DNA of 32,391 nucleotides, from the IMG/VR virus record IMGVR_UViG_3300020196_000147, positions 1 through 32,391 of that record; one strand, given 5' to 3'. Origin of the DNA: a virus. Below are positions 2,685 through 13,210 of the stretch, piece by piece. How positions within the stretch are numbered: the first letter of the stretch is position 1; each line of letters opens with the position of its first letter. Both the position numbers and the translations under genes were made by a program. A model generated the notes under the pieces. That model made no database searches and was not told where the DNA came from. It saw only the letters and a program-made list of their open reading frames with translations.

Positions 2685-3527
2685 ATGAATATTGGTGTAA
2701 TTGGATTAGGTTATGTTGGAACGGCGGTACAAAAAGGATTTGAATCAACACACTCAGTGTTAACTTATGACATCGCCAAAGAATCCACGGAAAAATCCGT
2801 CGCAGACTTGGCAGGTAAAGTATCAGTTGTGTTTATTTGTGTCCCAACACCGATGAATCCAGATGGGTCGTGTAATACAGACATTGTAGAGTCAGTTTTA
2901 CAAGAAATATCAGTAAAAGGACAGACAGAAGGTTCATCTCCAATCTGTGTGCTGAAGTCTACCGTCACTCCAGGTACTACTGAACGGTTAGCAAAGAAAT
3001 TTCCTACGTTAACTGTATGTTTTAACCCAGAATTCCTGACAGAAAAGAATTATATCAATGATTTCCTTTCTCAAGTCAACATTATTCTAGGATATGTACA
3101 CAATCAACGAGAAGTGAAGGTTGTACATGATGTATATCGGGAAAGATTTGGTCAGGCAAACATAATTTTGGTAAATTCAATCGAAGCAGAAATGATTAAG
3201 TATGTGGCAAACACGTTTCTTGCTACCAAAGTTGCGTATTTGAACGAAATTTGGCAAATTTGTCAAAAGACCGGAATCAACTATGACCATATGATTAATG
3301 TATTGAACAAAGATGAACGATTAGGTAATACACATTGGAATGTACCTGGTCATGATGGGAAATTTGGGTTCGGCGGAACGTGTTTTCCAAAAGATATCAA
3401 TGCCCTTATTGAGTTTGCCAACAAAAATAACCAAAATACTCCACTATTAAATGCAGTCTGGCAGAAAAACCTAGAAATGCGTCCAGAAAGGGATTGGGAA
3501 CTGGATAAGGGTCGAGCTGTAATATAA
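2685..3527 (+). CDS. UDP-glucose/GDP-mannose dehydrogenase-like protein lacking the C-terminal domain
   Basis: A 280-residue member of the nucleotide-sugar 6-dehydrogenase family, which oxidises for example UDP-glucose to UDP-glucuronate with NAD. The N-terminus has the Rossmann motif GVIGLGYVGTA, followed by VFICVPTPMN, STVTPGTT and FNPEFLTE. The central dimerisation domain carries the sugar-binding EAEMIKYVANTFLATKVAYLNE, and GFGGTCFPKD holds the catalytic Cys233. Full-length enzymes are about 390-450 residues and have a C-terminal UDP-binding domain. This protein stops soon after the catalytic Cys, so it either acts on another substrate, needs a partner, or is non-canonical. It starts 7 nt after the PurA-like gene with GAGG upstream, so the two are co-transcribed. 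A glycosyltransferase further on (11545) could use the product; that link is inferred. Confidence 0.82.
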   Translation: MNIGVIGLGYVGTAVQKGFESTHSVLTYDIAKESTEKSVADLAGKVSVVFICVPTPMNPDGSCNTDIVESVLQEISVKGQTEGSSPICVLKSTVTPGTTERLAKKFPTLTVCFNPEFLTEKNYINDFLSQVNIILGYVHNQREVKVVHDVYRERFGQANIILVNSIEAEMIKYVANTFLATKVAYLNEIWQICQKTGINYDHMINVLNKDERLGNTHWNVPGHDGKFGFGGTCFPKDINALIEFANKNNQNTPLLNAVWQKNLEMRPERDWELDKGRAVI

Positions 3528-3544
3528 ACTATTTAATAAACCCC

Positions 3545-3573
3545 TTGACAATCGTAAAGAATTACTATATATT
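3545..3573 (+). promoter_or_regulatory. Sigma70-type promoter for tRNA-Val and downstream genes
   Basis: TTGACA at 3545-3550, a 17-nt spacer, and TATATT at 3568-3573 (TATATTTA extended). The expected start is near 3580, just before the tRNA at 3588. Confidence 0.8.
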
Positions 3574-3587
3574 TAAGTTATATTCAC

Positions 3588-3661
3588 GGGTGGTTAGCTC
3601 AGTTGGTTAGAGCATCTCGTTTACACCGAGAGGGTCGGGGGTTCGAGTCCCTCACTACCCA
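3588..3661 (+). tRNA. tRNA-Val (TAC)
   Basis: The cloverleaf folds as acceptor GGGTGGT/ACTACCC, D-arm with AGTTGG, anticodon stem TCTCG/CGAGA around loop TTTACAC (anticodon TAC), and T-arm with TTCGAGT. The discriminator is A3661. The 3' CCA is not encoded and must be added after transcription. It would read GUA and related valine codons common in this AT-rich genome. Confidence 0.93.
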
Positions 3662-3749
3662 TTGAGGTTGCAGGCGGGTTACGTAGTAGAAGAATTATAT
3701 AATAATTCAACAAGTGAATATATTTTTACTCACAAATCAAAGGATACGT

Positions 3750-4256
3750 ATGATACAATATACTAATGTACTAAGTCAGCAACTTTTAGCTGATATAAAT
3801 GAAGAAAGGGAACGAAAAAAGAAAGACGAATTTTGTTGGCGGGTTGGTCAGTTTTTTTGGCAAGATTCTCTTCTTTACGGAGTAACGAATAGTTGTGTTT
3901 CTGCTTTATTAAGTGACTCACTTCGAACTAGACTGGAAAATGAATTAAGAGATAAATTACCACCATTCAATGAAATAATAGCACAACATTATGTATGGCT
4001 TCGCGGGTCGGGAATAGCCAAGCATGATGATGGTGCACATAATTTTGGAGCTACTATATACTTAAATAAAAATTGGGACATTAACTATGGCGGGGTATTT
4101 TTGTGGAAACCCGAAAATTCCGCAGAATATAAAACTATAGTTCCTGAATATAATACTATGGTGGTTAATACTAAAGCAGAGGAGCATTTGGTTACCCCAA
4201 TTGCGTTAAATGCGCCAGAATACAGGCACACAGTACAAATATGGAGATGGAAATAA
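3750..4256 (+). CDS. 2-oxoglutarate/Fe(II)-dependent oxygenase (prolyl 4-hydroxylase-like)
   Basis: A 168-residue protein with the metal triad of 2OG-Fe(II) dioxygenases: KHDDG gives His92-x-Asp94 and EEHLVTP gives His146, with Arg159 in YRHTVQIW placed to bind 2-oxoglutarate. The fold pattern (Y-VWLRGSG-IAKHDD, ATIYLN, YGGVFLW) matches the double-stranded beta-helix oxygenases often found in phages of aquatic bacteria. The start at 3750 is chosen because AAGGA lies 6 nt upstream; an in-frame GTG at 3714 has no such site. It sits alone between tRNA-Val and the other tRNAs and is probably transcribed from the promoter at 3545. The substrate (protein, nucleic acid or small molecule) cannot be told from the sequence. 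Confidence 0.8.
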   Translation: MIQYTNVLSQQLLADINEERERKKKDEFCWRVGQFFWQDSLLYGVTNSCVSALLSDSLRTRLENELRDKLPPFNEIIAQHYVWLRGSGIAKHDDGAHNFGATIYLNKNWDINYGGVFLWKPENSAEYKTIVPEYNTMVVNTKAEEHLVTPIALNAPEYRHTVQIWRWK

Positions 4257-4276
4257 TATATTATAATAAACGTCAC

Positions 4277-4304
4277 TTGACAAAATAAAAAATTGTCATA
4301 TATT
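4277..4304 (+). promoter_or_regulatory. Sigma70-type promoter for the tRNA cluster
   Basis: TTGACA at 4277-4282, a 16-nt spacer and TATATT at 4299-4304, extended as TATATTTA. It lies immediately before tRNA-Gly at 4316 and probably drives the Gly-Leu-Glu tRNAs and the genes behind them. Confidence 0.78.
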
Positions 4305-4315
4305 TACAATGTATT

Positions 4316-4387
4316 GCGAGTGTCATATAACGGCTATTATCCTAGCCTTCCAAGCTAGAGACGCGGGTTCGACTCCCGCCACTCGCT
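4316..4387 (+). tRNA. tRNA-Gly (TCC)
   Basis: Acceptor GCGAGTG/CACTCGC, anticodon stem CTAGC/GCTAG around CTTCCAA (anticodon TCC), and T-arm GCGGG-TTCGACT-CCCGC. The discriminator is T4387. CCA is not encoded. It starts about 5 nt after the expected transcription start of the upstream promoter. Confidence 0.93.
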
Positions 4388-4391
4388 CGTT

Positions 4392-4473
4392 GCTCTTGTG
4401 GTGGAATGGTATACACGGAAGTCTCAAAAACTTCTGCCCTAAAGGCTTGTGAGTTCGAGTCTCACCGGGAGCA
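4392..4473 (+). tRNA. tRNA-Leu (CAA)
   Basis: Acceptor GCTCTTG/CGGGAGC, anticodon stem GAAGT/ACTTC around CTCAAAA (anticodon CAA, reading UUG), a long variable arm TGCCCTAAAGGCTT as expected for leucine, and T-arm GTGAG-TTCGAGT-CTCAC. The discriminator is A4473. CCA is not encoded. It lies 4 nt after tRNA-Gly. Confidence 0.92.
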
Positions 4474-4516
4474 CTTTACAAATTTGAATCGGTTGTTTAT
4501 ATTTATATTTCTATAC

Positions 4517-4588
4517 GCCGCGTTCGTCTATCGGCTAGGACGCTAGACTTTCACTCTGGTAAGACGGGTTCGATTCCCGTACGCGGTA
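4517..4588 (+). tRNA. tRNA-Glu (TTC)
   Basis: Acceptor GCCGCGT/ACGCGGT, anticodon stem CTAGA/TCTGG around CTTTCAC (anticodon TTC), and T-loop TTCGATT. The overall sequence resembles bacterial tRNA-Glu, with the loop TTCGTCTATCGGCTAGGAC. CCA is not encoded; the discriminator A4588 is the A of an ATG that opens an apparent longer reading frame, which is not used as a start. Confidence 0.92.
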
Positions 4589-4608
4589 TGAACATTCACG
4601 GAGATTTT

Positions 4609-4770
4609 ATGTATATTGTAAAAGTCACATTAAAAGACAATTCTGTTCAAACATTTGAATATGAAGCAGGAGATGCAGTATCAGCAATACGAATGTTTCA
4701 AGCAGATGAATCTCCGGAAGCTGTATACGCTAGAGAAAATGCAGCAGAGATTGAAGCATACCCAGCGTAA
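4609..4770 (+). CDS. Small hypothetical protein, 53 residues
   Basis: Starts at ATG 4609 with GGAGA 6 nt upstream. The in-frame ATG at 4588 overlaps the tRNA-Glu 3' end and is rejected. The product opens with a beta-strand-like MYIVKVTLKDNSVQTFEYEA and continues with a helical, acidic C-terminal half. No signal peptide, membrane segment or known motif is seen. Its place inside a tRNA cluster suggests co-expression with them. Function unknown. Confidence 0.7.
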   Translation: MYIVKVTLKDNSVQTFEYEAGDAVSAIRMFQADESPEAVYARENAAEIEAYPA

Positions 4771-4780
4771 GGAATAATAT

Positions 4781-4873
4781 ATGCCACATCCCAAGAAATG
4801 CGGTAAGGGTCGTCGTAAAGTCGGCTCAAAAAAACGCAGAAATCGTTGGAAGAATAGAAAGCGTAAACATTAG
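4781..4873 (+). CDS. Very basic 30-residue peptide
   Basis: ATG at 4781 follows AAGGA (4769-4773), which overlaps the previous stop codon; the frame closes at TAG 4871-4873. The product has no acidic residues and more than half of its 30 residues are Lys or Arg, including the stretches GKGRRKVGSKKRRNR and RKRKH, with one Cys near the N-terminus. Composition is like the tiny ribosomal proteins (bTHX, bL34, bL36 size class) and like small phage peptides, so RNA or ribosome binding is a reasonable guess. It lies between tRNA genes and directly before the structured noncoding region. Function is inferred from composition only. Confidence 0.62.
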   Translation: MPHPKKCGKGRRKVGSKKRRNRWKNRKRKH

Positions 4874-4879
4874 TATTAT

Positions 4880-5090
4880 CCGAGGCCTTTACCCTACCTT
4901 TCACCTCGCAAACAGCCTTCGGGCGAATGGAAAGTCTTAATGATAGGGCGGGTTCTATTGACGTTATGATTAGACACGTTTTGACTAGTTTGGTGCCTGC
5001 ATAAACTAGTAGGTGGCTGAGGAAACTCGACGGAGTTGTGTGTCCGCCTAACTACTTGTAATAAGTGAGCTGATACCTCACAACACATCC
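4880..5090 (+). ncRNA. Candidate structured noncoding RNA of unknown identity
   Basis: About 220 nt between the basic peptide gene and tRNA-Gln contain no plausible reading frame but many helices: CCCTA 4892-4896 with TAGGG 4944-4948, enclosing CTTTC 4898-4902 with GAAAG 4930-4934 and a GCC-TTCG-GGC tetraloop hairpin at 4915-4924; ACTAGTTT 4984-4991 with AAACTAGT 5003-5010; GGTGG 5012-5016 with CCGCC 5044-5048, enclosing AACTC/GAGTT 5024-5037 around GACG; and GTGAG 5065-5069 with CTCAC 5077-5081. It does not match the landmarks I know for RNase P RNA, SRP RNA, 5S RNA, tmRNA or group I introns. Its place in a tRNA/tmRNA block suggests a translation-related or processing RNA, but that is inference. 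Ends are approximate. Confidence 0.5.
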
Positions 5091-5096
5091 CTCTAT

Positions 5097-5167
5097 TGCC
5101 CTCTCGTTCAATGGCAGGACGCCAGGCTTTGGACCTGGCTATCGTGGTTCGAATCCACGGGGGGCAA
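5097..5167 (+). tRNA. tRNA-Gln (TTG)
   Basis: Acceptor TGCCCTC/GGGGGCA, anticodon stem CCAGG/CCTGG around CTTTGGA (anticodon TTG), T-arm CGTGG-TTCGAAT-CCACG, discriminator A5167. CCA is not encoded. It immediately follows the unidentified structured RNA region, which may be its leader. Confidence 0.93.
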
Positions 5168-5208
5168 CTTGAAGTAGGTTACATTTTACCCTTTATGGAG
5201 CGTACACC

Positions 5209-5382
5209 ATGTACAAGTTCATTCTCGCAGTAGCAGTAGTCGCATTGACCGCATGTGGTTCAGCAGCAAAGACAGAAGAAACAGTAGCAGATAGTACCGC
5301 AGTCGCAGCACCAGTAGCAGACACCACCGCTACTGATTCAACTGCAGTCGCAGCACCAACCACCGGCGAAGCAGCTAAGTAA
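5209..5382 (+). CDS. Small lipoprotein, 57 residues
   Basis: ATG at 5209 with GGAG 8-9 nt upstream. Residues 1-15 are a lipoprotein signal peptide ending in LTAC, so Cys16 is the likely lipidated residue. The mature part is only about 41 residues, low in complexity and rich in Ala, Thr, Asp and Val, with DSTAVAAP occurring twice. It would be a short disordered chain anchored in a membrane of the host envelope. Its GC and codon use (GCA, ACC, GTC) are higher than its neighbours, which may mark a recent acquisition. It is followed by a terminator. Possible roles such as superinfection exclusion are speculation. Confidence 0.7.
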   Translation: MYKFILAVAVVALTACGSAAKTEETVADSTAVAAPVADTTATDSTAVAAPTTGEAAK

Positions 5383-5406
5383 GACTCACTAATCAAATGG
5401 TGAATA

Positions 5407-5440
5407 AAAAGGGATTCTGTCGTTAGATGGAGTCCCTTTT
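5407..5440 (+). terminator. Rho-independent terminator after the small lipoprotein
   Basis: Stem AAAAGGGATTC 5407-5417 pairs with GAGTCCCTTTT 5430-5440 (11 pairs, one G-T) around a 12-nt loop; the 3' arm ends in TTTT. It lies 24 nt after the lipoprotein stop. Confidence 0.7.
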
Positions 5441-5458
5441 CACCTAAATGGAGGTTTT

Positions 5459-5590
5459 ATGCATCCAAATGAAATTCGTATTACAAAAGACAATCAAGAA
5501 ACCCTTATGGAAGAAGCAGAACGTATGGGAAAGATCTATGTTGCTGCTTTACAAGAACAAATTGAACGTCAAAGTGGAAAAACAAAGTAA
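5459..5590 (+). CDS. Small hypothetical protein, 43 residues
   Basis: ATG at 5459 with a strong GGAGG 6 nt upstream; the upstream sequence CACCTAAATGGAGGT is nearly the same as that before the 519 gene. The product is mainly helical and charged (MEEAERMGKIYVAALQEQIERQ), with no membrane segment or motif I recognise. It lies between a terminator and the peptidase gene. Function unknown. Confidence 0.68.
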   Translation: MHPNEIRITKDNQETLMEEAERMGKIYVAALQEQIERQSGKTK

Positions 5591-5636
5591 ATAGTTTTGG
5601 GTTGATATTTAAGTAAGTCTACATTTTGGAGCGGTT

Positions 5637-6083
5637 ATGGAAAAACCGATTAAGTACATAAAAGCCACAATAACAAATAGTTGTGTCCCAGCGTGTCTCG
5701 CTATGGTCACAGGTAAAACGCTCCAACGTGTTATTAAAGAGATTTACGAGCACTGGGAAAACGAAGGTCGGTATCAAGGAATTGAAGATAACATTGTTGA
5801 CCAGTATCTTTCAAAAAACGGATACGCTGTTCAACGAATCAGTCACGAATACGAACCTAATAAGTTGTTGATTCCTAAATGGCCGGTCAAACCATTTGCA
5901 CCAATCCATATCGTAGATGTTTGGTCAACAAATCCGGCAGGAATGCATGCAGTGGTGATGCTAAAAGATGGAACTATATATGATCCATCTAACAGACGTA
6001 TTAAAGATATCTCAATGTACCAACGAGTATTTGGAATCACAGGTATTTGGAAAGTTACCGATAAGATTTTTGATGTAAAATAA
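5637..6083 (+). CDS. Papain-like / C39-like cysteine peptidase domain protein
   Basis: A 148-residue protein with the order of catalytic elements seen in papain-fold C39-like peptidases: an early NSCVPACLAMVTGK (Cys16 as likely nucleophile), then GMHAVVMLKDGTIYDPSN (His104 and Asp116). The length equals a single catalytic domain. No signal peptide is present, so it should act in the cytoplasm; a target could be a phage or host protein, or the fold may act as a binding module. GGAG lies 6 nt before the ATG. The stop codon TAA at 6081-6083 directly abuts the first base of the tmRNA, so the gene and the tmRNA must share a transcript, or the tmRNA promoter lies inside this gene. Enzymatic role is inferred from motif order. 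Confidence 0.65.
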   Translation: MEKPIKYIKATITNSCVPACLAMVTGKTLQRVIKEIYEHWENEGRYQGIEDNIVDQYLSKNGYAVQRISHEYEPNKLLIPKWPVKPFAPIHIVDVWSTNPAGMHAVVMLKDGTIYDPSNRRIKDISMYQRVFGITGIWKVTDKIFDVK

Positions 6084-6436
6084 GGGCCTGTCATGGTTTC
6101 GACGGGATGTAGATGATTGAGCATTGTGCCCAGCTTGGTAAACCTGGTAAAACAGACCAAAAAATATTAACTGGCAACTCATACAGCCAACCTCTCGCCC
6201 TCGCTGCGTAAGCAGTAGAGCCGAAGGACCGATGACCTGATCCATATAAGGGTAATCGGACTTATCATATGGTGTAGTGTTAGTGACGGGTAGTAGCTAA
6301 CATCAAACATAACTATCCTATATCTAATTTGGGTTCGTTCTTTGACCAGAGTTAGACGAATACTAATAAAGAACTACGCACATAAAAACTTAATAGGAAG
6401 CAGACTCGGACGCGGGTTCGACTCCCGCCAGGTCCA
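6084..6436 (+). ncRNA. ssrA: Transfer-messenger RNA (tmRNA)
   Basis: The 5' end GGGCCTG-TCATGGTTTCGACGGG is the tmRNA signature, and the 3' end has a tRNA-like T-arm (GCGGG-TTCGACT-CCCGC) closing with CAGGTCC and discriminator A6436. The acceptor stem GGGCCTG/CAGGTCC has a G-T as its third pair, the identity element for alanyl-tRNA synthetase. The tag frame resumes at GGC 6173 and ends at TAA 6209-6211, encoding GNSYSQPLALAA, with the LALAA end recognised by host ClpXP-type proteases. CCA is not encoded. About 350 nt is the usual length. It rescues stalled ribosomes together with SmpB, which is not in this window and is presumably supplied by the host. Confidence 0.97.
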
Positions 6437-6469
6437 TAGTTACGAATCACAATTTTTTTGGAGTTACTT

Positions 6470-6763
6470 ATGTACAAAAAAATTCTTGGGAAGATTCGTG
6501 AACTGTTTTTCAAAGAAGAACGATACGATACGTCACTTCGTCGGCAATGTATTCTTGAAGAATATAAAGTTCTCTTTGAACAAGTAAGAAATGCTAATGA
6601 CTTGACAAAACTCTTAGAAACACGTAAACTTCTTAGAGACTTCCAACAAGGTACAATAGATGTTGGAGAAGAATCGTGGGCACGGCAGTACCAAATGGAC
6701 CTCCATAGAGTATGGAATATTAAATACAGATATTGGAAACGTACTAGAGGTAGAGGTAAATAA
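6470..6763 (+). CDS. Hypothetical charged helical protein, 97 residues
   Basis: The start is ATG 6470 with GGAG at 6460-6463; an in-frame TTG at 6458 lies before that site and is rejected. The product is highly charged and helical, with MYKKILGKIRELFFKEER at the N-terminus, a leucine-rich middle (LTKLLETRKLLRDF) and a basic aromatic C-terminus (YRYWKRTRGRGK) suited to nucleic acid contact. Its stop overlaps the next ATG (TAATG), so the two are translationally coupled. It starts 33 nt after the tmRNA and may be on the same transcript. Function unknown. Confidence 0.72.
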   Translation: MYKKILGKIRELFFKEERYDTSLRRQCILEEYKVLFEQVRNANDLTKLLETRKLLRDFQQGTIDVGEESWARQYQMDLHRVWNIKYRYWKRTRGRGK

Positions 6764-7988: not shown

Positions 7989-8615
7989 ATGATTGACGAG
8001 CAGAAGATTGAAGATAACTACAATAAGTTCATGGAGTATGTGAAAGCAGATTCACGTGCAGATAAACTGATAGAGATGTATGAAATTTTTGGTAATGAAT
8101 TAAATCTGGCGCCGGCTTCCGCTAAAGTATTTTACCACAATGCATTTCCTGGCGGATATCTTGACCACGTACTTCGTGTGACGGAAACTTCACTACAAGT
8201 TGCGTCCTTATATAAGAAGATGGGTGGAACAATTGATTTCACTAAACAGGAACTTGTGTTTGCAGCACTCCATCACGATTTAGGAAAGTTAGGTGACCCC
8301 GAACAGGGACCATACTATCTTGAACAGGATTCCGATTGGCATCGTAAGAATCGTGGTGAAATGTATAAATTTAATGATAACATTCAATATATGACGGTTA
8401 CTGACCGTGCCATATACCTACTTCAAAAGTACGGAGTTCCTATTACTGAAAAGGAATGGTTAGGGATTAAGTTGTCAGATGGTATGTATGAAGATTCTAA
8501 CAAGGCATATTATAAGTGCTTTGTTCCAAATGCAATGAAAACAAACCTTCCATACATTCTTCATTGGGCAGACCATATGTCATGTAAAACGGAAGGAGAT
8601 AACGCAAAATTTTAA
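7989..8615 (+). CDS. HD-domain phosphohydrolase
   Basis: A 208-residue protein with the HD superfamily metal site: FPGGYLDHVLRV gives the first His, and LHHDLGKLGD gives His95-His96-Asp97. A later Asp in LHWADHMS can complete the site. The GGYLDHVLRVTE context is closer to the HD domains of YhaM-like and cyclic-nucleotide or oligonucleotide phosphohydrolases than to the dNTPase DatZ of Z-genome phages. Members hydrolyse nucleotides or nucleic acids; substrate here is unknown. The start is supported by AAGGATAAACGGTT before the ATG and by an internal promoter at 7896. A perfect 15-bp hairpin follows the stop. Confidence 0.8.
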   Translation: MIDEQKIEDNYNKFMEYVKADSRADKLIEMYEIFGNELNLAPASAKVFYHNAFPGGYLDHVLRVTETSLQVASLYKKMGGTIDFTKQELVFAALHHDLGKLGDPEQGPYYLEQDSDWHRKNRGEMYKFNDNIQYMTVTDRAIYLLQKYGVPITEKEWLGIKLSDGMYEDSNKAYYKCFVPNAMKTNLPYILHWADHMSCKTEGDNAKF

Positions 8616-8665: not shown

Positions 8666-8743
8666 GACCCGCACACAACGTGGGGTCATAACAACGTGAC
8701 GCTCAATAGTGAGGTCACATAATATAGGAGGTCATTTTATGAC
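8666..8743 (+). promoter_or_regulatory. Foldable hsp20 leader (candidate RNA thermometer)
   Basis: Three hairpins precede and overlap the hsp20 start: GACCC 8666-8670 with GGGTC 8682-8686, enclosing CAC-AAC-GTG; GTGAC-g-CTCA 8696-8705 with TGAG-GTCAC 8710-8718 around ATAG; and GTCAT 8731-8735 with ATGAC 8739-8743 around TTT, which pairs the start codon with the bases just after the AGGAGG. A weak hairpin that hides the start codon is how several hsp20 RNA thermometers work; the function here is inferred. Confidence 0.45.
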
Positions 8744-9218
8744 TCATTTAGTATTCCGCCCATTCGGGTCAACAGTTTTAAACAGCAGGGACAACTTCAT
8801 CAGTACATTTGATAAGATGTTTGATGAAATTACCCGCAGAGATTTCCCTGAACTCTTCCAACATTTCGGGGCAGAACCTTTTGGGAAGTCAGCATATCCA
8901 AAGGTTAATGTAATTTCAAATGACGAGTCTGTAGTTATTGAAGCTGAACTCGCCGGTTACAAGAAGGATGAAATCGATATTGAGGTTAAGGAAGGTGTCT
9001 TGACCATTTCAGGCGGTGCATCTCAATTGAACGAGCAAACTGATAAATCCGTTTATCTACTTCGTGAACTCAAGCGTAGTTCGTTCAGTCGCTCATTTAA
9101 GCTCGGTGACCAATTGGATGCCTCCGAAGTAGACGCACAGTTCGACAATGGGTTATTGACTGTAACAATCCAAAAATTGACAAAGGAACCAGCAAGTAAA
9201 AAGGTTACAATTAAGTAA
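8739..9218 (+). CDS. Small heat-shock protein, Hsp20/alpha-crystallin family
   Basis: A 159-residue Hsp20. The alpha-crystallin domain runs from about residue 55 to the end: PKVNVISNDESVVIEAELAGYKKDEIDIEVKEG, then LTISGG, a SFSRSFKLGDQLDAS segment and the hallmark DNGLLTVTIQK. The N-terminal arm (FRPFGSTVLNSRDNFISTFDKMF) is typical. It should form oligomers that hold unfolding proteins in the cytoplasm, perhaps helping virion assembly or survival of infected cells under stress; Hsp20 genes are known in T4-like cyanophages. The start at 8739 has AGGAGG upstream; an in-frame GTG at 8709 lies in a hairpin and is rejected. The leader may be temperature-sensitive. Confidence 0.93.
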   Translation: MTHLVFRPFGSTVLNSRDNFISTFDKMFDEITRRDFPELFQHFGAEPFGKSAYPKVNVISNDESVVIEAELAGYKKDEIDIEVKEGVLTISGGASQLNEQTDKSVYLLRELKRSSFSRSFKLGDQLDASEVDAQFDNGLLTVTIQKLTKEPASKKVTIK

Positions 9219-10475: not shown

Positions 10476-10502
10476 TAGTATACTACTTAATTGGGGGATT
10501 TT

Positions 10503-11402
10503 GTGCCTATTAACGTTGGTTACTGTTGCATCAATAATACACTAAACAAGAAAGGTATCACCACGGGACGTGCCATGCGTAAAGCCACCTTTGAAGCTAA
10601 GGGTATTAAATACGCATCTGAATTAGCATTGGCAAACGCTAAAGACCTTCTTGAAATCCTTATGTGGAATGCAGACAATGGAGTGAAGGTATTCCGTATG
10701 GGGTCAGGTATATTTCCTTGGGGAAGTGAATACAATAATACAAGTTTACCTGATTTTTTTGAGATTGCTAGTACACTACGTATGTGCGGTAACTTCGCCA
10801 AAGCCACTGGTCAACGTATCACGGCGCATCCAGATCATTTTGTAAAACTTGGATCAGATAAACAAAAAGTTGTAGATAATTCTATCAAAGATTTGGAACT
10901 ACATTCCGAAGTGTTTGACCTTATGGGAACCGATGCGTCACGATATAATGCTATCAATATTCATGTGGGTATGAACTTTTCAGAAGAAACTGCACAACGG
11001 TGGATTGATAATTTCCGTAAGTTGTCACCAAATCTTCAAGCACGCATGGTAGTCGAAAATGATGACAAGGAATCATCATTCTCTATTATTCAACTGTTTA
11101 CTTATCTCCACACAGAGTTAGGTATCCCACTTACTTTCGACTATTTTCATCACCAGTTTCATTCGGATGGATTGACTACCCAAGACGCAGCAGAACTTGC
11201 CGCCGGTACTTGGCCGGAAGGTATCACACCACTTTTCCATTATAGTGAGAGTAAAAACATCAATGAAAACGTTCAAGGTAATCCTCGAGCTCATGCTGAT
11301 TATGTGTTTTCTCGTATTGACGATTTTGGACTCACGTTGGATGTTGACCTCGAAGCAAAAGCAAAGGAATTAGCCCTCTTTAAATATCGGGAGTTAGTAT
11401 GA
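10503..11402 (+). CDS. uvsE: UV damage endonuclease (UvsE/UVDE family)
   Basis: A 299-residue TIM-barrel endonuclease that nicks DNA 5' of UV photoproducts and starts light-independent repair. Family marks: INVGYCCINNTLN at the N-terminus, ITTGRAMRK, ILMWNADNGVKVFRMGSGIFPWGSEY, TAHPDHFVKL in place of the usual HPGQFV, INIHVGM, VVENDDK and TFDYFHHQFH, which supply the His, Glu and Asp metal ligands. The start is GTG 10503, 4 nt after GGGGGA; an in-frame TTG at 10491 lies before that site. It has its own promoter and its stop overlaps the next ATG. In a phage it would protect or repair the genome after sunlight damage and suits an aquatic or surface habitat. Confidence 0.92.
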   Translation: MPINVGYCCINNTLNKKGITTGRAMRKATFEAKGIKYASELALANAKDLLEILMWNADNGVKVFRMGSGIFPWGSEYNNTSLPDFFEIASTLRMCGNFAKATGQRITAHPDHFVKLGSDKQKVVDNSIKDLELHSEVFDLMGTDASRYNAINIHVGMNFSEETAQRWIDNFRKLSPNLQARMVVENDDKESSFSIIQLFTYLHTELGIPLTFDYFHHQFHSDGLTTQDAAELAAGTWPEGITPLFHYSESKNINENVQGNPRAHADYVFSRIDDFGLTLDVDLEAKAKELALFKYRELV

Positions 11403-11548: not shown

Positions 11549-12180
11549 CACCACTTATTTCGTTTGCGGTTACCACACATAACGAAGGTGAGTATATTCG
11601 AGAACTGATTGACCAGCTTGTTCCGCACTGTGAGCAAACTGGTGATGAAATTATTGTTGTGGATGATAATTCTACCGACCCATTCACCACAAGTATGTTG
11701 TATGGTTATGAAGACGCAAACTTAATTCAATTGTATAATCACGAACTCAATCATAACTTTGGTGAACATAAGAATTTCCTAAACAGTAAATGTAACGGAG
11801 AATATATTTTCCAAGTTGACGCTGATGAAAAGTTCCATAATAATCTGCTCAACTATATGCACGATATTGTAGACAACAATAAGCATGTGGATTTGTTTCT
11901 TATTCCTCGCGTGAATATTGTAGGTGGACTGACCGACGAAGATATTCGTCGTTGGGGATGGCGAATCAATGAAAAGGGTTGGGTAATGTTTCCCGATTAC
12001 CAAACCAGACTATATCGTAATACTGATAGTATCTATTGGGAAGGAAAAGTACACGAACGTATTGTAGGATATAAGACAACAGCATCACTACCCGCAGAAG
12101 AAGAGTGGTCACTATATCACATTAAGGATATTGAACGTCAACGTAAACAAAATGACTATTATGACACCATTACACGGTAA
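11545..12180 (+). CDS. Glycosyltransferase family 2
   Basis: A 211-residue GT-A fold glycosyltransferase. It begins ISFAVTTHNEGEYIRELIDQL (nucleotide-sugar binding start), then EIIVVDDNSTD, and FQVDADEKF with the Asp-x-Asp metal motif. The C-terminal WEGKVHERI and YHIKDIERQ resemble the lipopolysaccharide core glucosyltransferase WaaE type. It should transfer a sugar from a UDP- or similar donor to a glycan, DNA base or protein. The ATG overlaps the preceding stop, and the last 20 nt overlap the start of the IMPDH-like gene. The dehydrogenase at 2685 could feed it a uronic acid donor, but that is inferred. Confidence 0.88.
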   Translation: MTPLISFAVTTHNEGEYIRELIDQLVPHCEQTGDEIIVVDDNSTDPFTTSMLYGYEDANLIQLYNHELNHNFGEHKNFLNSKCNGEYIFQVDADEKFHNNLLNYMHDIVDNNKHVDLFLIPRVNIVGGLTDEDIRRWGWRINEKGWVMFPDYQTRLYRNTDSIYWEGKVHERIVGYKTTASLPAEEEWSLYHIKDIERQRKQNDYYDTITR

Positions 12181-13210
12181 GCAAGCTCTCACCTACGACG
12201 ACATCCAACTTATCCCAGCATATTCGGATATTGATTCTCGTCAGAATATTGACCTTACTACACAATTAACTACTAATTATAAGATTAGGGTTCCGTTGGT
12301 TGCATCCCCGATGGATACGGTATGTGATAGTGAGATGGCAATAGCAATGATGGAACTTGGTGGAGTGGGTATCATTCACCGATTTATGACGATTGAAGAA
12401 CAAGCGCATGAAGTATCACTTACTATAGTTGAAGGTATAACTCGTAGGAAAAGTAATATATGGGGAGATACAACAATTCCTGTTGCCGCAGCAATCGGTG
12501 CAAACGGTGATTACTTGGAACGAGCACAAGAGTTGGTCAATGCAGGTGCAAATGTTATTTTAATTGATGTAGCACATGGATATCATAAGTTTGTGATTGA
12601 TGCAATTCATAACCTAAAGCACAGTCTTCCGTCTGACGTAGACATTATCGCAGGAAATGTCGCAACAGGCGGAGCAGCACTTAGATTGCAAGATGCAGGA
12701 GCAGATGCAATCCGTGTTGGTATCGGCGGTGGGTCACTTTGCACTACCCGGGTCAAGACTGGATTTGGTGTTCCGAACGTCACATCGTTGATTGATTGTG
12801 CAGGAAGTGTTTCTGTTCCGATTATCGCATGTGGTGGTATTCGAAATAGTGGAGACATTGCGAAGGCACTAGGAGTTGGAGCAAATTCTGTTATCCTCGG
12901 GTCACTTATTGCAGGAACGAAGGAAGCTCCAGGCCCAATGATTGAGAAGGCAAATGGGGGATATAAGCGGTATCGTGGTGCAGCATCGCTGGAAACTAAG
13001 AGTATCCACGGTCAAGCAACACGGAATGTTGAAGGTGAATCAACTATCGTACCATTTAAGGGTAAAGTGAAGTTTGTGGTGGATGGACTTCTTGATGGAT
13101 TACGTTCTGCACTATCCTACGCCGGTGCAAACAATCTTCGGGAGTATTTCCCAGAATATGTGGTGGTGACTAATGCAGGTGTTCGCGAGGCACAACCGCA
13201 TTTACTCTAA
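12161..13210 (+). CDS. IMP dehydrogenase / GMP reductase family protein without CBS domain
   Basis: A 349-residue TIM-barrel enzyme of the IMPDH/GMPR family. Motifs: ALTYDDIQLIPA at the N-terminus, ASPMDTVCDSEMAIAM, GVGIIHRFM, IAGNVATGGAALRL and the catalytic loop GIGGGSLCTTRVKTGFGVP with Cys194. The C-terminus ends VTNAGVREAQPHLL, closer to IMPDH (AG-RESHPHD) than to GMPR. It has no CBS pair, which most bacterial IMPDHs carry between the barrel halves, so its length is like GMPR. IMPDH makes XMP from IMP; GMPR makes IMP from GMP. Start 12161 is preferred to 12152 or 12131, but no clear ribosome binding site decides it; it overlaps the glycosyltransferase by 20 nt. Which reaction it runs is uncertain. 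Confidence 0.85.
   Translation: MTPLHGKQALTYDDIQLIPAYSDIDSRQNIDLTTQLTTNYKIRVPLVASPMDTVCDSEMAIAMMELGGVGIIHRFMTIEEQAHEVSLTIVEGITRRKSNIWGDTTIPVAAAIGANGDYLERAQELVNAGANVILIDVAHGYHKFVIDAIHNLKHSLPSDVDIIAGNVATGGAALRLQDAGADAIRVGIGGGSLCTTRVKTGFGVPNVTSLIDCAGSVSVPIIACGGIRNSGDIAKALGVGANSVILGSLIAGTKEAPGPMIEKANGGYKRYRGAASLETKSIHGQATRNVEGESTIVPFKGKVKFVVDGLLDGLRSALSYAGANNLREYFPEYVVVTNAGVREAQPHLL

Follow-up and report, generated by a model that had tools for sequence, protein, structure and literature searches.

What question does a tmRNA-like sequence in a phage raise: is it a genuine gene of the phage lineage, and what might the phage do with it? We address this for a 32,391-nucleotide stretch of virus DNA (the window), in which an initial annotation made from the sequence alone had proposed a tmRNA whose tag frame is complete, and remarked that such genes are uncommon in phages. 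That remark agrees with an ARAGORN-based survey, where tmRNA genes were found in 402 of 18,146 phage genomes (PMC9004378). A curated database holds 79 unique phage tmRNA sequences (PMC11915505), and SmpB and tmRNA have been noted in huge phages (PMC7162821).

Identity and structure of the gene

The Rfam tmRNA model RF00023 matches the window at 6084-6439 on the plus strand with 135.1 bits (cmscan, E 5.2e-53, gathering threshold 47), and all of model positions 1-374 are covered, which is the complete, one-piece form. The coordinates first proposed for the gene, 6084-6436, are exact (Table 1). The tRNA-like 3' end that had been recognised does carry functional acceptor elements, the two strands (GGGCCUG and CAGGUCC in the window) being paired in all 20 relatives compared, and the alanine identity pair, described at first as a G-T at the third acceptor pair, is G3(6086)-U70(6433). 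The bases TAG come directly after discriminator A6436, so that CCA is not encoded by the window gene; it is encoded by none of the aligned phage tmRNA genes. As the 3' position of tmRNA is 'not always encoding CCA' (PMC11915505), an encoded CCA is not a defining feature of tmRNA at the gene level.

Table 1. Features of the tmRNA locus, in window coordinates
Feature	Position	Strand	Support or remark
Five tRNA genes (Val, Gly, Leu, Glu, Gln), none of the five with encoded CCA	3588..5168	+	ARAGORN, Rfam
148-aa protein gene, stop codon abutting tmRNA base G1	5637..6083	+	
tmRNA gene, one-piece, G1 to discriminator A	6084..6436	+	RF00023, 135.1 bits; covariation, 20 relatives
Acceptor 5' strand GGGCCUG, including G3 (6086)	6084..6090	+	Paired 20/20; compensatory changes at positions 4, 5, 6
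Helix 2 5' strands, pairing with 6378-6394	6116..6129	+	99-100% of cells paired; both-side changes in 6/11 pairs
Pseudoknot 1 (6130-6133/6144-6147 and 6135-6139/6156-6160)	6130..6160	+	Covariation
A four bases before resume codon, equivalent of E. coli A86	6169..6169	+	Invariant 20/20
Tag reading frame GNSYSQPLALAA and UAA stop, 12 codons	6173..6211	+	In-frame tags in 20/20 distinct relatives
Exchanged block (tag, H5, PK2, most of PK3): L007-type inside, L005 on both sides	6180..6311	+	Informative sites, module nearest neighbours, AU tests
Pseudoknot 2 (stem 1 6229-6233/6255-6259, stem 2 6242-6247/6267-6272)	6229..6272	+	Stem 2 99.2% paired, both-side changes
Pseudoknot 3	6278..6318	+	Stem 1 100% paired; both-side changes in 5/6 pairs
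Pseudoknot 4	6323..6374	+	Stem 2 100% paired, both-side changes; stem 1 79% on A2
T arm GCGGG UUCGACU CCCGC	6412..6428	+	Paired 20/20, compensatory changes
Acceptor 3' strand CAGGUCC (U70 = 6433) and discriminator A	6429..6436	+	G3-U70 invariant 20/20
97-aa protein, predicted helical, no significant family match	6470..6763	+	Downstream tmRNA neighbour in nearly all relatives

The check that had been suggested, by Rfam and by ARAGORN, gave a divided answer, positive for the Rfam half and negative for the other, as ARAGORN reported five tRNAs in the window and no tmRNA, tmRNA-only mode included. Reliance on ARAGORN alone would have led to the wrong rejection of the tmRNA, because this program misses a gene that the Rfam model detects. 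Over 30 tmRNA loci it missed ten (the window and nine relatives, among them every tmRNA with the window's gene order) and wrongly tagged three. Since it misses about a third and mis-tags about another tenth of this lineage, surveys based on ARAGORN undercount phage tmRNAs.

Support for the fold comes from alignment A2 of 20 distinct phage tmRNA sequences, on which the parts of helix 2, both stems of the four pseudoknots and the T stem were tested. Standard pairs fill 94.6% of pair cells, compared with 31-44% when the strands are slid, and part of this excess is expected because the tested structure was taken from the window sequence. Changes on both sides of a pair in other sequences are not expected from the structure having been drawn on the window, and they occur in 34 of 57 pairs. 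The covariation score is 0.489, against 0.213 +/- 0.010 for shuffled and at most 0.101 for slid versions. The helices and pseudoknots are backed by covariation far beyond chance, and PK1 to PK4 are all present in the window tmRNA. The weakest element is PK2 stem 1, which is paired in 65% of cells of the 20-sequence alignment and is clear in the window type only, because that part comes in two length types. For the acceptor stem, pairs were counted after shifting a one-base gap in five sequences. A significant covariance match, pseudoknots covarying in 20 relatives and an acceptor paired in all of them are the reverse of what the initial annotation had said would speak against a tmRNA.

The tag reading frame

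The complete tag frame was found as proposed, with 6173-6211 encoding GNSYSQPLALAA and a stop. The resume codon is GGC (6173 in the window) in 20 of 20 sequences, position -4 is an invariant A and position -5 is U or C. In E. coli tmRNA, A86 fixes the reading frame that starts four bases further on, and the change U85C is tolerated (PMC2481249). Tags among the relatives are GNSYSQPLALAA, GNYNSPALALAA, GNQLALAA, GNNQLALAA, GTQEFALAA, GNYNLALAA, GNYTLALAA and GNEYLALAA. They are 8, 9 or 12 codons long, differ in length by whole codons only across the 20 distinct sequences, and are all in frame with ALAA at the end. The invariant A at -4, together with in-frame ALAA tags of varying length, provides strong evidence that the tag is coding.

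Relatives and origin of the gene

About 25 related phage tmRNAs were detected in IMG/VR. Exact searches with the 5' signature and the pseudoknot-1 signature yielded some 20 further contigs, and further relatives came from a search with the protein encoded by the 148-aa gene upstream; in most of the related contigs the one-piece tmRNA was confirmed by Rfam. The phage tmRNAs known thereby gain a lineage of about 25 members, which covariation supports independently. Two other phage contigs, L008 and L013, have the same 22-base 5' signature but permuted (two-piece) tmRNAs.

The 19-base 5' signature was found, by exact match, in one of 84,980 bacterial and archaeal genomes, an Oscillospiraceae MAG. 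This MAG was considered as the host and rejected, since its tmRNA encodes CCA and the gene body differs. Because the 5' signature is nearly confined to phage contigs, the gene is assigned to a phage lineage, with room left by the exact-match test for a more divergent bacterial parent. DNA similarity searches against named phages matched the 31-40 base 3' end only, mostly in host-type ssrA ends. By baseplate wedge protein, the nearest named phages are Microcystis phage Mel-JY01 (41% identity) and Flavobacterium phage immuto (39%), which are distant relatives in this structural protein and differ from the window in having no tmRNA above the cut-off and no relative of the 97-aa protein. The window is a fragment of an uncultivated large tailed phage with a genuine phage-lineage tmRNA gene.

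Phage tmRNA is, as a kind, already known. With the bacterial one-piece tmRNA (RF00023) the window gene shares the tRNA-like domain, G3-U70, four pseudoknots, resume codon, ALAA tag and a UAA in the following hairpin; unlike it, the gene lacks CCA, is phage-borne and comes from a phage lineage that has variants of its own and exchanges modules. Mycobacterium phages Bxz1 and Wildcat and Bacillus phage G also have ssrA on the phage genome (PMC4131195), but these are unrelated phages with DNA similarity detectable only in the region of the T arm and 3' end. Methylophilales phage Melnitz (PMC9004378) is likewise an aquatic large myophage with a tmRNA and tRNAs; its tmRNA, however, is permuted, two-piece and riboswitch-linked, whereas that of the window is one-piece and no riboswitch was matched. 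What goes beyond the known systems is the exchange of the tag block and the linked small protein, which are described below.

Mosaic ancestry

Comparison with the relatives L005 and L007 shows the window tmRNA to be a mosaic. At sites where these two differ, the window agrees with L005 at tmRNA positions 34-85, with L007 at 97-228 (two exceptions) and with L005 again at 238-305; the run of 15 sites was reached in none of 20,000 permutation trials. Positions 1-89 are 99% identical to L005 and 85% to L007, while tag, H5 and PK2 (90-193) are 99% identical to L007 and 86% to L005, and the 3' part is closest, at 98%, to L010, L011 and L035. In AU tests, on segments that are short and with boundaries picked after the data had been seen, the flank data rejected the cassette tree (p 1.9e-6), and the cassette data rejected the flank tree (p 3e-46). 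On these sequence comparisons, a single tree history is rejected for the tag block and the rest of the gene.

Similar patterns are seen between other relatives. L006 and L019 are identical in PK3 and 73% identical in PK4, and L030 and L033 are 99% identical across tag and PK2 and less than 83% in the 5' part. These comparisons show that phage tmRNAs evolve by swapping blocks of tag and pseudoknots. In E. coli experiments pseudoknots and tag were replaceable (PMC2481249), and exchange of the tag block would therefore be tolerable. We found no earlier report of tmRNA mosaicism or tag-block exchange in a literature search, which is not proof of absence.

The suggestion that the tag could name the host did not hold. 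Sister phages with the same neighbour genes differ in tag (GNSYSQPLALAA, GNYNSPALALAA, GNQLALAA), and an identical tag is found in a phage in which other parts of the tmRNA are different. As the tag block is recombined between phages, the tag is an unsafe host marker.

A small protein linked to the tmRNA

In 20 of 21 loci inspected, the first gene 3' of the tmRNA encodes a protein of 84-98 aa; identity among these proteins falls as low as 22% (alignment A3). The protein is absent from one tmRNA contig, G013/L016. When IMG/VR was searched with the neighbour protein alone, 18 loci were obtained, five of them new, and a tmRNA lay upstream in every one. The link is kept despite gene insertions after the neighbour gene in L006, L007 and L071, and also in L063, where an ORF for a 177-aa protein, HNH-like by eye (3368-3901), stands between the tmRNA and the neighbour gene. 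In most contigs the genes that follow are syntenic as well, so that common descent accounts for most of this linkage.

An AlphaFold2 model of the 97-aa protein, built from 13 sequences, is all helical (pLDDT 83.5), and the protein has no significant family match and no significant structure match in PDB or BFVD. It was considered as SmpB and rejected on three counts: no Pfam SmpB match, an all-helical model where SmpB is a beta-barrel, and no fold match. From its genomic position it is a candidate partner of the phage tmRNA, and a functional partnership between the two is possible. A literature search returned no earlier report of the neighbour protein, and this too is not proof of absence. 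One may go further and suppose that tmRNA and protein form a phage-specific trans-translation module, in which the protein would bind the phage tmRNA, SmpB or the ribosome and so favour phage over host tmRNA, and the tag block would be a selectable cassette swapped among phages; we regard this as unlikely.

Function and rival explanations

Ribosome rescue with tagging is most likely the function of this tmRNA. From established tmRNA biology we infer how the RNA, if expressed, would be processed, charged, used with SmpB and translated, and how the tagged product would be degraded. Host RNase P would trim the transcript to G1, the host CCA-adding enzyme would complete the 3' end and host AlaRS would charge it through G3-U70. 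Host SmpB would bring the charged tmRNA to ribosomes stalled on truncated mRNAs, where translation would restart at GGC, append GNSYSQPLALAA and end at UAA, freeing the ribosome, and the ALAA end would mark the tagged protein for ClpXP-type proteolysis. The phage would probably gain in that ribosomes stay in circulation while mRNA is degraded during infection; the late-infection timing suggested at the outset found no support.

No SmpB was found in any phage contig searched, including those of 131, 148 and 167 kb, and no CCA-adding enzyme in the window's phage group, the only phage with one being unrelated and 484 kb in size. Host factors would thus be needed, and the phage tmRNA probably relies on the SmpB, AlaRS and CCA-adding enzyme of the host. 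A phage-encoded SmpB might nevertheless exist, because the window is a 32-kb fragment and no relative is known to be complete. It is likely, in our judgement, that the window carries a genuine phage-lineage tmRNA that uses host factors for ordinary trans-translation. Selection acts on its structure, its charging identity and its coding together, which argues for a working tmRNA and not a decoy or relic.

A decoy would act by competition, titrating host SmpB or blocking trans-translation by the host, a role that has been proposed for the tRNA-like-domain-only RNA of mycobacteriophage DS6A. An RNA of the DS6A type, with a tRNA-like domain, strongly inhibits tmRNA (PMC4131195), the failure to find SmpB in the contigs searched would fit such a role, and a 112-nt form without the coding part exists in the distant huge phage LR756508. 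An intact tag frame and four pseudoknots would, however, be superfluous in a decoy, yet both are clearly constrained in 20 relatives, and we hold this explanation to be very improbable. Somewhat less improbable, though still unlikely, is that the tmRNA serves mainly for directed tagging and degradation of host or phage proteins, for amino-acid recycling or regulation, and not for general rescue. This has been proposed for phage Melnitz (PMC9004378), and differing tags in close relatives and a recombining tag block are in keeping with it, but the general ClpXP-type ALAA end is kept in all tags, there was no sign of an adaptor, a protease or target specificity, and the proposal is speculative in PMC9004378 too. 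There is hardly any likelihood that the tmRNA is a host ssrA fragment left by imprecise excision of a prophage integrating at ssrA. Such events are common for temperate phages, and the distant BLAST matches cover no more than the last 31-40 bases of such genes; the gene is nonetheless complete, without encoded CCA, and lies inside a phage gene order conserved across many contigs, its 5' 19-mer occurs in one of 84,980 genomes, and the ORFs scanned included no recognisable integrase.

The 484-kb uncultured phage LR756508.1 has two tmRNA-like loci, at 414804-414915 (L054) and 92434-92880 (L053). One is a full-length tmRNA and the other a tRNA-like-domain form of about 112 nt without coding part (58 bits, above the cut-off), resembling the inhibitory DS6A form.

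Gene neighbourhood and transcription

In the window, UDP-glucose dehydrogenase (2685-3527) is followed by a promoter-like TTGACA-N17-TATATT (3545), the tRNA cluster, small ORFs, the 148-aa gene and the tmRNA. After the tmRNA come the 97-aa gene, a further three genes, an HNH endonuclease and an HD protein. In L006, L007, L015, L019 and L020 this promoter motif is found 54-57 bases 5' of the tmRNA, and the dehydrogenase is the nearest upstream gene of the tmRNA in L007, L015, L019 and L020. As promoter or dehydrogenase thus stands directly before the tmRNA in relatives, the window type seems to have gained the tRNA cluster and the 148-aa gene by insertion. The TAG stop of the 148-aa gene overlaps G1 of the tmRNA by one base in L010, L012, L030 and L035, and in L005 it abuts G1 without overlap, as in the window.

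At 5400-5443, past the tRNA cluster and before the tmRNA, the sequence can form a strong hairpin (-22.5 kcal/mol, z -5.7) with CUUUU after it, and this may stop transcription coming from the tRNA promoters. A search of 4800-6084 for sigma-70-like promoters gave none. The hairpin and the want of a clear promoter after it leave no evident route of transcription for the window copy, which weighs against its reading as a working tmRNA. Promoter-like sites of the form TTGACA-N16/18-TATATT occur on the plus strand of the window at 1105, 3545, 4277, 7896 and 10447, where 0.13 would be expected from mononucleotide shuffles; two of the five sit just before tRNA genes.

A 57-aa ORF at 5209-5382, between the tRNA cluster and the tmRNA, has a lipoprotein-like start (MYKFILAVAVVALTACGS) and a low-complexity tail. 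The window also has purine metabolism genes, for a PurA-like adenylosuccinate synthetase and an IMP dehydrogenase/GMP reductase-like enzyme (1667-2677, 12131-13210). A diaminopurine (Z) genome was considered and rejected, as the PurA/PurZ-type gene scores higher with PurA than with PurZ models and keeps the aspartate of GDxGKGK (GDTGKGK). Other genes encode an HD-domain protein (7989-8615), an Hsp20-like chaperone (8709-9218), a UvdE-type UV endonuclease (10491-11402) and a 2OG-Fe(II) oxygenase-like protein (3714-4256).
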